A stretch of DNA of 64,000 nt, taken from Litoreibacter albidus. Lineage in GTDB: Bacteria; Pseudomonadota; Alphaproteobacteria; Rhodobacterales; Rhodobacteraceae. The notes below the pieces were generated by a model. The model searched no databases. It had not been told where the DNA came from and was given only the letters and a program-made list of their open reading frames with translations. The number at the start of each line of letters is the position of its first letter. The first letter of the stretch is position 1. Where the stretch lies: positions 124,001 to 188,000 of the forward strand of contig NZ_FNOI01000005.1 of NCBI RefSeq assembly GCF_900107015.1, given 5' to 3'. Below are positions 1,245-4,827 of this stretch, piece by piece. The position numbers were made by a program, and so were the translations under genes.

Positions 1245-1321
1245 TGGCGATCCCTGAAGGACTCGAACCCTCAACCTGCTGATTAGAAGTCAGCTGCTCT
1301 ATCCAGTTGAGCTAAGGGACC
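1245..1321 (-). tRNA. tRNA-Arg (anticodon TCT)
   Basis: A 77-base cloverleaf can be drawn on the minus strand. The 7-bp acceptor stem has GGTCCCT at the 5' end and AGGGATC at the 3' end. The anticodon stem GCTGA/TCAGC holds loop CTTCTAA, giving anticodon TCT. The T arm carries the usual GTTCGAGTC loop, and the 3' CCA is encoded. TCT reads AGA/AGG arginine codons, which are rare in GC-rich genomes. Confidence 0.95.
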
Positions 1322-1392
1322 GCTGACCGCTTATTGCGAAAGCCTGCGCGCAAACGCAAGGGCTTTGCTTATTTATCCGCCCTAGCTAAAGA

Positions 1393-1405
1393 TGAACGCA
1401 GTTCA
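1393..1405. promoter_or_regulatory. TetR operator candidate, site 1 (TGAAC-N3-GTTCA)
   Basis: The perfect palindrome TGAACGCAGTTCA ends 12 bases before the ATG of the TetR-family gene at 1418. The same half-sites with a three-base spacer recur three times just downstream of that gene. The position suggests autorepression. Confidence 0.7.
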
Positions 1406-1417
1406 AGTGAGGGGCCT

Positions 1418-2026
1418 ATGACCGGAAAAGTTCAGAAGAAACGTGAAGATCTCCGCGCGCGATTGATTGATATCGCTGAAGAGCGGATCAAGACGGATGG
1501 CATAGCTGGCCTGCGGGCCCGAGACCTTGCGAAGGAAGCAGGATGTGCGGTTGGTGCCATATACAACGTCTTTGGCGATATGAACGACTTGATCATGGCC
1601 GTGAACGCACGGACGTTCAAACGCGTCGGCGCGCAGGTTTCAAAGGCCGTCGCGGCACAGCCCCCCGGTCATCCGGTCAATTCAATGATCGCCATGTCGC
1701 ATGCCTATCTGCACTTCGCACGTGACAACACTCCCGCTTGGCGCACGCTGTTCGACTTGGAGGTTTCTACCGAAGAAAAGGTGCCAGCGTGGTATTTAGA
1801 GGAGCTGCAAAACGTCTTCTCCCTGATCGCTGATCCGTTGGTGCGAATCTTTCCGGATATGTCCGAGGAGGATGTGAATCTTATGACCCGCGGGCTGTTC
1901 TCATCCGTGCATGGAATCGTGCTTCTTGGGTTGGAGAAGCGAATATCAGGCGTTCCTATTGATAAGCTTGAACATATGATTTCTCTTGTTTTCAATCACT
2001 TGACGTCAACACCCTCAGAAAAATGA
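1418..2026 (+). CDS. TetR/AcrR family transcriptional regulator
   Basis: A 202-residue regulator with an N-terminal helix-turn-helix of TetR type (about residues 15-60; motif CAVGAIYNVFGDMNDLI) and an all-helical C-terminal ligand/dimer domain containing PAWRTLF. I take ATG 1418 because GTGAGGGG lies just before it; the frame stays open upstream to 1334, but that stretch reads like translated leader. The stop codon lies inside operator site 2. The downstream genes encode PspA-like and YiaAB-like envelope proteins, so it probably represses them and itself. The ligand is unknown. Confidence 0.88.
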   Translation: MTGKVQKKREDLRARLIDIAEERIKTDGIAGLRARDLAKEAGCAVGAIYNVFGDMNDLIMAVNARTFKRVGAQVSKAVAAQPPGHPVNSMIAMSHAYLHFARDNTPAWRTLFDLEVSTEEKVPAWYLEELQNVFSLIADPLVRIFPDMSEEDVNLMTRGLFSSVHGIVLLGLEKRISGVPIDKLEHMISLVFNHLTSTPSEK

Positions 2027-2036
2027 ACTTCGTTCA
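2024..2036. promoter_or_regulatory. TetR operator candidate, site 2
   Basis: TGAACTTCGTTCA is a copy of the TGAAC-N3-GTTCA palindrome. It overlaps the stop codon of the TetR gene. Its centre is 23 bases from that of site 3, about two helical turns. Confidence 0.75.
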
Positions 2037-2045
2037 AGTTTTTTA

Positions 2046-2073
2046 TTGAACGTCGTTCAAAAATCAGTATCTT
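2046..2073 (+). promoter_or_regulatory. Candidate sigma-70 promoter of the pspA-yiaAB unit
   Basis: A -35-like TTGAAC (2046-2051) and a -10-like TATCTT (2068-2073) are separated by 16 bases. Operator site 3 covers the -35 and site 4 lies just downstream of the -10, so a bound repressor would block polymerase. This is inferred from spacing only. Confidence 0.45.
2047..2059. promoter_or_regulatory. TetR operator candidate, site 3
   Basis: TGAACGTCGTTCA is a perfect copy of the palindrome. It overlaps the presumed -35 element of the pspA promoter. Confidence 0.75.
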
Positions 2074-2080
2074 GAATTCA

Positions 2081-2093
2081 TGAACAGCGTTCA
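2081..2093. promoter_or_regulatory. TetR operator candidate, site 4
   Basis: TGAACAGCGTTCA is the fourth copy of the palindrome. It lies between the presumed -10 element and the pspA start codon. Confidence 0.75.
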
Positions 2094-2119
2094 CACGCTA
2101 CCATGTAGGAGAGACCAAG

Positions 2120-2794
2120 ATGTTTTTGACATTGAAGACCCTGATGACCGGCGCAAATGCTCGGGCCGAAGAAAAGGTCCGCGACGTCTACGCCATCGAG
2201 TTGATTGAACAAAAAATCCGCGAAGCGACCAACAGCCTGACCGCTGCCAAGGCCACATTGGCAAGCTTGATCCAGCGCCATCGCGGTGAAGACCGCCAAG
2301 TGCGCTCCATCGAGGCCCGCGTCACTGACCTGACCGAGCGCGCGCAAAAGGCGCTTAATGATGACAATGAGACCATGGCCGCCGAGGCCGCGAATGCCAT
2401 CGCCCAGCTTGAGAACGAGCTTGAAGGCCGCCGCCAAACTTTAGGCCGGTTGGATCAGCGGATCATGCGCTTGCGCCAAAGTATTGAAACGGGAAACCGC
2501 CGCATCATCGACCTGAAGCAAGGCGCAATAACGGCTAAAGCGGTGCGCTACGAACAATCGGTGCAAGCCAAGCTGAACACCACACTTCAGGGTAAGTCCA
2601 GCGTGGCCGAGGCCGAAGAGCTAATCGCGAATGTTCTTCAAAAAGACGACCCGTTCGAGCAGGCCGAAATCCTCGCCGACATCGACCGCGATCTCACCCA
2701 CGAGACCCTCGCAGATCGCTTATCGGACGCAGGATACGGCGCAGCCACACGGGCCACGGGCGCGGATGTCCTCAAGCGCCTGAAATCCAAATAA
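2120..2794 (+). CDS. pspA: PspA/IM30 family membrane-stress protein
   Basis: A 224-residue, almost entirely helical and charged protein, close to the usual PspA length of about 220. The N-terminal stretch (residues 1-20) can form an amphipathic helix of the kind PspA uses to bind lipid. Long coiled coil follows (about 25-160), then a shorter helical C-terminal part. Known members bind and stabilise stressed inner membrane. GGAGAG precedes the ATG. It is the first gene after the operator array and is followed 39 bases later by a YiaAB protein. No pspF or pspBC homologue is nearby; control appears to be by the TetR regulator. Confidence 0.85.
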   Translation: MFLTLKTLMTGANARAEEKVRDVYAIELIEQKIREATNSLTAAKATLASLIQRHRGEDRQVRSIEARVTDLTERAQKALNDDNETMAAEAANAIAQLENELEGRRQTLGRLDQRIMRLRQSIETGNRRIIDLKQGAITAKAVRYEQSVQAKLNTTLQGKSSVAEAEELIANVLQKDDPFEQAEILADIDRDLTHETLADRLSDAGYGAATRATGADVLKRLKSK

Positions 2795-2833
2795 CCGACA
2801 GACACATAAAATTCTTTAGAAAAGGAACAGAAA

Positions 2834-3121
2834 ATGAATAACGCAATCAAATCCGACAATACCTTGATAATGATGGTAAACCTTGCAGGCGTGTTCATCG
2901 CCCTCGGGATGTTGGCCCTCTCCCTCTACATGTCGCCTGACGTGCCGCTGTCGACCAAAGGCTTCTGGGGCATCGGCGTGCTGATGCTGTCGCTGAGCTT
3001 GGTGAACTTCGTGAAGTACCGTTTTGACGAGCGCATCAGCGAAGACCGCATTCAACAGATTGAACGCGCACGGAACGAAAAACTGCTGGAAGACTATGTG
3101 ACGGTCGACAAAGCCGCCTAA
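2834..3121 (+). CDS. YiaA/YiaB family two-helix inner membrane protein
   Basis: A 95-residue protein with two hydrophobic helices (about residues 10-35 and 42-62) and a charged cytoplasmic tail (FDERISEDRIQQIERARNEK). This is the plan of the YiaAB two-helix family. An AGGAACAG ribosome site precedes the ATG. It probably shares a transcript with the PspA gene, and a terminator follows. The biochemical role is unknown; pairing with PspA suggests a membrane partner. Confidence 0.8.
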   Translation: MNNAIKSDNTLIMMVNLAGVFIALGMLALSLYMSPDVPLSTKGFWGIGVLMLSLSLVNFVKYRFDERISEDRIQQIERARNEKLLEDYVTVDKAA

Positions 3122-3140
3122 GACATTTCCAAGCCAGTTG

Positions 3141-3172
3141 CCGCGCCCTCCTCCCCGGGGGCGCGGTTTTCC
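3141..3172 (+). terminator. Rho-independent terminator after yiaAB
   Basis: CCGCGCCC (3141-3148) pairs with GGGCGCGG (3159-3166) and is followed by TTTT. It separates pspA-yiaAB from the acyltransferase/CdsA-like pair, so the latter may have its own promoter or depend on read-through. Confidence 0.7.
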
Positions 3173-3229
3173 TTGATTAAAGCCGCCAAAACCTGTCCCT
3201 TGAAGTAACTGTTTAATAAGAGAGCCGAA

Positions 3230-3868
3230 ATGCGCCGCTTTGCAGCTTCCATCGTAGGACAACTCCTGATTTTTGTAGGTCAGTTCATTACGGCAGCCCG
3301 CGCCGATTGGCGTGGGATTGAGCCGGTACCACGTCAACGCATCTACTACGCCAACCACTCCTCCAACGCCGATCTGCCGCTTATCTGGACGGTTCTGCCC
3401 GCCGCAATTCGGCGCAACACCCGCGCCGTCGCAGCGGCTGACTACTGGTTGAAGAACAAGCTCCGCGCGTTCATCGGGCGCGACGTTTTTCATGGGGTGC
3501 TGATCGACCGCCGCGCCGAGCACCGCACCGATGATCCCATCGCAAAAATCGTGCAGGCGCTCGACGATGGTTCATCCATTATCATTTTCCCTGAAGGTGG
3601 GCGTAACCGCACGGAAGACCCTTTGATGCCATTCAAGGCGGGGCTCTATAACATCGCGCAGCAACGACCAGAGGTTGATCTGGTCCCATGCTGGATCGAC
3701 AACATCGCCCACATAATGCCAACGGGGGAGGTGATCCCAGTGCCATTGGCCTGCACCGTGACGTTTGGCGCCCCTATCCATGTGGGCGAGACAGAACAGA
3801 AAGACGCGTTCTTGTCTCGCGCCTCTGACGCGCTGCTCGATCTGATCCCGTCCCGAGGGCAAGCCTGA
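3230..3868 (+). CDS. 1-acyl-sn-glycerol-3-phosphate acyltransferase family protein (PlsC-like)
   Basis: A 212-residue acyltransferase. The catalytic NHSSNAD motif (NHxxxxD) is at residues 42-48 and the substrate-binding FPEGGR at 120-125. An N-terminal hydrophobic segment (about 9-22) would anchor it to the inner membrane. Members move an acyl group onto lysophospholipid precursors. The stop codon overlaps the next ATG by one base (TGATG), so it is translationally coupled to a CdsA-like gene. A separate main plsC probably exists elsewhere; this copy may serve membrane repair with PspA (inference). Confidence 0.85.
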   Translation: MRRFAASIVGQLLIFVGQFITAARADWRGIEPVPRQRIYYANHSSNADLPLIWTVLPAAIRRNTRAVAAADYWLKNKLRAFIGRDVFHGVLIDRRAEHRTDDPIAKIVQALDDGSSIIIFPEGGRNRTEDPLMPFKAGLYNIAQQRPEVDLVPCWIDNIAHIMPTGEVIPVPLACTVTFGAPIHVGETEQKDAFLSRASDALLDLIPSRGQA

Positions 3869-4827
3869 TGGAAATGACCCAAACAAGCTCCGACCTGCTG
3901 TTCCTGTTCGCCGCGTGCTGCGGCTTGCTGATCATCGCGACACTTGTGGGCGAAGTCCTACAAGCGCGGCTTCACAAAACCCGTGCCAACCTGACGGTAG
4001 AGACCTACCTGACACGCGTTCACAGCTGGTGGGGCATGGTGTTTTTGTTCTCCATCGCGCTGCTGGTCGGTCCGGTGGGCATCATCACTCTGTTCGCCTT
4101 CTGCTCCTTAGCGGCATTGCGCGAATTTCTAACGCTGACAACGAAAACCAATGCGGATCATTGGTCCCTGATTGCCAGTTTTTATCTAATTCTACCGTTT
4201 CAATATGTTTTGATTTGGTGGGGTGAGGTCGGGCTGTTCTCCACCCTGATCCCCATCTACGCCTTCCTACTCCTCCCGATCCTCAGCGTTCTGCGGGGCG
4301 GCGAAGGGGCCGACAAAAACTTCCTCGCGCGAATATCGGAAACCCAATGGGGCCTGATGATCTGTGTGTTCTGCGCCAGCTACATACCCGCGCTCGTCAC
4401 CCTCGACATTCCAAACTACGGCGACCGCGCGCCACTGCTCATCGCCTATTTGGTATTCGTGATCCAGATGAGCGATCTCATGGAATATTTCACCGGCCGC
4501 CGCTTTGGCAGACGCAAGGTCGCTCCTGCCGTATCGCCCAAAACCCGCGAGGGTATCGCGTGCGGGGCCGCGTTTGCGGCGGCTCTAGGCCTGCTGCTAA
4601 CGTGGATGACGCCGTTCTCACCGCTCGCATCGATTGCGATGGCGGTCATGGCCTATCTCGTGGGTGTCGGCGGGTCTTTGGTTTTGGCGGCGATCAAGTC
4701 TGACCGCGGCATAAAGAACTGGGGCCACCTCATTCCCGGGCAAGGCGGGTTCGTGGATCAACTCGACTCCGTGGTCTTCGCAGCGCCCGTGTTCTTCCAC
4801 GTCACACGCTACTATTACGGCGGCTAG
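3868..4827 (+). CDS. Phosphatidate cytidylyltransferase family protein (CdsA-like paralogue)
   Basis: A 319-residue polytopic membrane protein with about eight hydrophobic helices. It ends in a CdsA-type signature (residues about 277-302). CdsA makes CDP-diacylglycerol from phosphatidate and CTP. The signature deviates from the usual form: GIKN where KD is expected, PGQGG where PGHGG is usual, and VDQLD for DRxD. From memory, similar changes and the FFHVTRYYY ending are seen in YnbB-type paralogues. It overlaps the acyltransferase gene by one base, suggesting joint production of lipid intermediates. Activity as a true cytidylyltransferase is not assured. Confidence 0.78.
   Translation: MEMTQTSSDLLFLFAACCGLLIIATLVGEVLQARLHKTRANLTVETYLTRVHSWWGMVFLFSIALLVGPVGIITLFAFCSLAALREFLTLTTKTNADHWSLIASFYLILPFQYVLIWWGEVGLFSTLIPIYAFLLLPILSVLRGGEGADKNFLARISETQWGLMICVFCASYIPALVTLDIPNYGDRAPLLIAYLVFVIQMSDLMEYFTGRRFGRRKVAPAVSPKTREGIACGAAFAAALGLLLTWMTPFSPLASIAMAVMAYLVGVGGSLVLAAIKSDRGIKNWGHLIPGQGGFVDQLDSVVFAAPVFFHVTRYYYGG

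Follow-up and report, generated by a model that had tools for sequence, protein, structure and literature searches.

A TetR regulator gene, four palindromic sites and a candidate TetR-controlled pspA operon in Litoreibacter albidus

The window, a stretch of 64,000 nucleotides from Litoreibacter albidus, carries a tetR gene that is followed on the plus strand by pspA and three further genes. The tetR gene (1418..2026, plus strand) encodes a protein of 202 amino acids with the domains TetR_N and TetR_C_33, both over their Pfam cut-offs. Its start is most likely the ATG at 1418, which is shared by the orthologues; a TTG start at 1334 was rejected on the same grounds. A tRNA-Arg gene (anticodon tct; 1245-1321, minus strand) lies just 5' of the tetR promoter region. 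The product of pspA (2120..2794, plus strand) is a PspA/IM30-family protein of 224 amino acids (PF04012, 65.6 bits against a cut-off of 33.9) that scores 19 of the 243 bits asked for by the enterobacterial PspA equivalog TIGR02977. In most orthologous loci the gene next after pspA is, as here (2834..3121, plus strand), one for a YiaA-like two-helix membrane protein, which in the window has 95 amino acids and a YiaAB match below cut-off (19.3 versus 26.6 bits). Between this gene and the next lies a terminator-like hairpin (3140..3167, plus strand) of 11 pairs, nine of them G-C. It may end the pspA transcript; the region holds three terminator-like sites versus 2.5 in shuffled sequence, a number within chance. 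The genes beyond the hairpin encode a PlsC-like acyltransferase (3230..3868, plus strand; PF01553 over cut-off) and a CdsA-like cytidylyltransferase (3868..4827, plus strand; PF01148 over cut-off). A second CdsA-family gene lies at G000:C2:946503, beside what we take by eye to be uppS and frr, which gives the genome a copy outside the operon as well. Neither Pfam nor NCBIfam recognised PspF, PspB or PspC beside pspA among the locus neighbours, which are the TetR, YiaA-like, PlsC-like and CdsA-like genes and not pspF with pspBC.

The preliminary description of this DNA had reported four perfect copies of the palindrome TGAAC-N3-GTTCA, and all four are exact 13-mers at the positions it gave. No further exact copy occurs in the genome (3,576,820 bases in 12 contigs). 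Putative operator site 1 (1393..1405) lies 5' of tetR, with 12 bases between its end and the ATG, and has the centre GCA. Site 2 (2024..2036; centre TTC) begins with the TGA (2024-2026) that ends tetR and is thus partly coding, so that the earlier placement of one site before tetR and three between tetR and pspA holds by position, except that site 2 overlaps the end of tetR. Site 3 (2047..2059; centre GTC) covers the putative -35 element of pspA and site 4 (2081..2093; centre AGC) the expected transcription start, both at conserved spacing. From centre to centre, site 2 is 23 bp from site 3, and site 3 is 34 bp from site 4. The former distance had been taken to place two dimers on one face of the DNA. 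The distance itself is right and conserved at 22-23 bp, but it corresponds to about 2.2 helical turns; a common face is therefore approximate only, and as exact geometry it is ruled out.

This arrangement recurs in related genomes. The exact triplet is found in 28 of the 198 family genomes, with none for the reversed control. Of 35 distinct triplets, 34 keep the first two sites 22-23 bp apart and 33 keep the last two 33-35 bp apart. In the loci where tetR and pspA are divergent (L049-L052), the order of the triplet relative to pspA is unchanged. A class-wide search for the triplet matched 3 of 385 genomes, one of them outside the family, from which we conclude that the TetR-PspA system is narrow in distribution. 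A comparison of six Litoreibacter-group loci shows how unevenly the region varies: no variation is seen at 39 of 40 half-site positions, the sole exception being an alignment gap with every site exact, versus 2 of 12 centre positions and 101 of 154 other compared flanking positions.

The triplet also appears to have the pspA promoter built into its sites 3 and 4. A putative promoter (2046..2073, plus strand) consists of TTGAAC (2046-2051), 16 nucleotides and TATCTT (2068-2073), and its position is conserved. After leaving out five near-copy Litoreibacter loci, all 30 triplets have a T directly 5' of site 3, which yields TTGAAC each time, and in 27 of them TAT or TAC follows 16-19 nucleotides later. 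When the bases between sites 3 and 4 were shuffled 2000 times, the latter count averaged 6.9 and reached 18 at most. The stricter pattern TAnnnT occurs in 12 of the 35 triplets. The promoter presumed earlier to lie under the sites is supported by these conserved elements, though a strict sigma-70 scan of 1300-3250 returned no promoter.

Apart from the half-sites, the three central bases distinguish the two genes. They read R-N-Y in 87 of 90 sites at pspA versus 10 of 34 at tetR, where about 25% is expected by chance; these counts drop the five near-copy Litoreibacter loci, with which they become 102 of 105 and 10 of 39. Site-1 counts exclude the divergent loci. Of the four sites in the window, only 3 and 4 have R-N-Y centres; site 2 thus breaks the rule for pspA sites. 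The split suggests strong operators at pspA and weak ones at tetR. We infer that TetR would bind better to R-N-Y centres and hold its own gene less tightly than pspA, with a correspondingly weaker control.

Orthologues of the regulator were sought in the same 198 genomes. TetR matches occur in 60 of them at E values up to 1e-10; at an identity of at least 34% there are 43 hits in 42 genomes, and the remaining matches show 24-33%. A separate search gave five further Litoreibacter loci (88-90%) and one from an uncultured Jannaschia (L040), which has the pspA triplet and lies outside the 43-locus count, a number that belongs to the 198-genome search only. The 200 bp upstream of tetR contain an exact site in 38 of the 43 loci, including four divergent ones where it is a pspA site, and the 1.3 kb downstream do so in 32. 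Three of the 43 (L048, L053 and L080) have no exact site in either interval; L048 (by name) and L053 (by the identity limit) are omitted from the locus-site listing and are counted among the 43. In a tree of TetR proteins, these three fall with 47 rows labelled as site-bearing into one group of 50 rows (support 98/93). The preliminary description had set recurrence of the motif upstream of orthologous tetR and pspA genes as a test, which the locus passes: the site recurs before tetR and the triplet before pspA across genera.

The two proteins travel together. PspA is found in 37 of the 198 genomes (E up to 1e-5), and 35 of these have TetR as well; 7 genomes have TetR only, 2 have PspA only and 154 have neither (p about 2e-29, a value without kinship correction). 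One PspA-only genome, G089, has a TetR of 29% identity plus the triplet, and the other, G095, holds remnants of tetR and pspA beside an NDUS4 gene and uvrB (L188), as if both genes were decaying together. The 7 of 42 TetR genomes without a PspA match (G171, G026, G079, G134, G185, G112 and G166) indicate that PspA is not the only role of TetR; G166 is 71% complete and its contig ends beside a triplet.

Several of the other site-bearing targets are membrane or lipid genes, among them an unlinked pspA: in G132 pspA and tetR lie on different contigs, and two exact sites stand upstream of pspA. In the PspA-less G026 and G079, site pairs precede the gene of a membrane protein of about 400 amino acids, for which no family scores over cut-off (best NCBIfam match PspM, 16.4 versus 80 bits). 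Present in 22 of the 198 genomes, it has one to three palindromes just upstream at L155, L156, L150, L153, L160 and L163. Its gene has at least two sites in the preceding 300 bp in 6 of 12 TetR genomes versus 1 of 10 others (p 0.07), and any site in 7 of 12 versus 1 of 10 (p 0.03), which is suggestive only of its membership in the TetR regulon. Elsewhere, a site pair precedes a VIT/VWA protein gene in G171, which also has a single site between tetR and plsC-cdsA, a small protein and DUF2145 gene in G134, and a ketoacyl-ACP synthase III-like gene in G190. The pairs in G054 and G063 precede genes without a clear link, the pair in G185 has no clear target, and G112 has no pair. Outside the family, G427 has a TetR gene divergent from the triplet, pspA, a YiaA-like gene and an acyl-ACP phospholipid O-acyltransferase gene (over cut-off).

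A small protein and DUF2145 gene with palindromes upstream were also seen at L054, L060, L161 and L164, in three cases followed by a distant TetR; at L164, in G089, the two genes lie behind pspA and the YiaA-like gene. The DUF2145-linked TetR proteins branch outside the 50-row group on long branches of their own, so that the operators they share may be old or convergent. G200, which belongs to another family, has a distant TetR and a fatty-acid hydroxylase related to OlsE with two palindromes between them, 35 bp apart (L194). A different pattern is found in G112 and G153, with 64 and 69 palindromes (reversed control 1 and 1) and at most 10 in each of the other 196 genomes. Each of the two carries a TetR of the group without a nearby operator (loci L053 and L048). 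In a sample of their dispersed sites (L095-L110), 14 of 16 lie inside long mechanical ORFs and the centres are free, a pattern that recalls SlmA-like dispersed sites. A search for the dispersed motif in relatives of G112 returned no other member of its genus.

The regulator itself has the domain and the fold of its family. The TetR_N helix-turn-helix scores over its cut-off (PF00440, 27.9 bits versus 24), and the all-helical fold with a C-terminal ligand domain is seen in the match to PF13305, over cut-off, and in a structure model built from a 36-row alignment of TetR proteins (pLDDT 93.8, pTM 0.88). The best structural match of the model is 3cjd, a putative TetR regulator from Jannaschia sp. 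CCS1, with 51-52% identity and a TM-score of 0.87 by query length; 3on2, Rv0078, FasR, Rv1816, KstR and EthR2 follow far behind. The close fold and identity suggest that 3cjd is probably an orthologue. We know of no function or operator for it, and a literature search for '3CJD' returned no papers. Assignment to FabR, KstR, FasR, PsrA, FadR, BetI or AcrR was rejected: the protein stays below the curated NCBIfam cut-off of each equivalog that it hits, with BetI as the best equivalog (26.3 versus 201.3 bits) and 20.7 of 151 bits for FabR and 19.8 of 280 for KstR. Within the C-terminal part, Y97, W108, H165 and G166 are invariant in the 36-row alignment. FasR binds acyl-CoA, and by their titles the KstR structure entries carry cholesterol CoA-type ligands, by analogy with which a lipid ligand is plausible for this TetR as well. 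Taken on its own, the lipid signal is a tentative proposal, drawn from the gene neighbours and from these resemblances.

The sites, their conservation and spacing, the co-occurrence of the genes and the overlap with the promoter point to a TetR that is quite probably a one-component repressor of its own gene and of the pspA operon. TetR dimers would bind the four palindromes and repress two promoters, that of tetR through site 1 and that of pspA through sites 2-4, of which site 3 covers the -35 element and site 4 the start. When the membrane is in trouble, a signal bound in the C-terminal domain, most likely a lipid-type molecule, would release TetR and turn on PspA and the YiaA-like protein, perhaps together with the acyltransferase and the second CdsA beyond the possible terminator. 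Membrane repair and phospholipid supply would thereby go up together.

Repression rather than activation is very probably the mode of action. In an activator or dual regulator, site 2 would help to recruit the polymerase and sites 3 and 4 would tune its activity; site 2 does lie upstream of the putative -35 with a conserved spacing to site 3, and the structural neighbour FasR is named an activator in NCBIfam. The position of sites 3 and 4 on the -35 and the start nevertheless favours blocking, and most local TetR proteins are repressors, which leaves activation unlikely.

That the palindromes belong to another, unlinked DNA-binding protein, with tetR merely one of its targets, we consider quite improbable. 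The three TetR loci without nearby sites would fit such a protein, as would some distant TetRs with a similar recognition helix that also lie near such sites and the triplet of G089, whose TetR is so divergent. Against it stand the joint occurrence of TetR, PspA and triplet and the site that precedes tetR even in the PspA-less G171, G026, G079 and G134. A chance cluster, finally, deserves almost no credence. By a first-order Markov model of the window, a genome of this size should contain about 3.3 exact copies, so that four is an ordinary number. A count with up to one mismatch gives 5 matches in the window, where 1.55 are expected. The unusual feature is the clustering, since all four exact copies lie within 701 bp, where 0.0006 are expected (0.059 per 64 kb), and chance was rejected because the layout is conserved across genera.

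With a repressor as the preferred reading, the locus offers a precise, testable regulon for an unnamed group of regulators that has a crystal structure (3cjd) and for which no function was found. With pspA next to lipid synthesis genes, the locus also bears on the way in which PspA protects the membrane and on the signal that induces it. Our literature searches, with subscription papers and regulon databases outside their scope, found no paper on TetR control of pspA. The main texts of two surveys of the PSP response (PMC11237479 and PMC9239133) use the word 'TetR' 0 times, and the TetR-controlled PspA membrane-stress response to which the locus points goes unnamed in the same texts. A TetR repressor is ordinary as such; as a control of PspA it seems to be a new form. 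It is a genuine if tentative possibility that the PspA stress response of Roseobacteraceae and a few relatives makes up a class of its own, in which TetR and not PspF would read the membrane lipid state and tie PspA repair to inducible phospholipid synthesis or re-acylation. Its order and depth would be governed by strong operators with R-N-Y centres at pspA and relaxed operators at tetR, and the regulon would include the unnamed membrane protein and the DUF2145 operon.

Two known types of control come closest to that proposed for this locus. As in the enterobacterial Psp response, the main target is a PspA/IM30-family protein (PF04012 over cut-off); unlike there, a TetR-type regulator lies beside pspA and no neighbour is recognised as PspF, PspB or PspC. 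FabR, DesT, PsrA, FasR and KstR have palindromic operators over promoters beside their target genes, a layout like that in the window, and the window TetR shares their fold class, but unlike theirs its targets centre on pspA.
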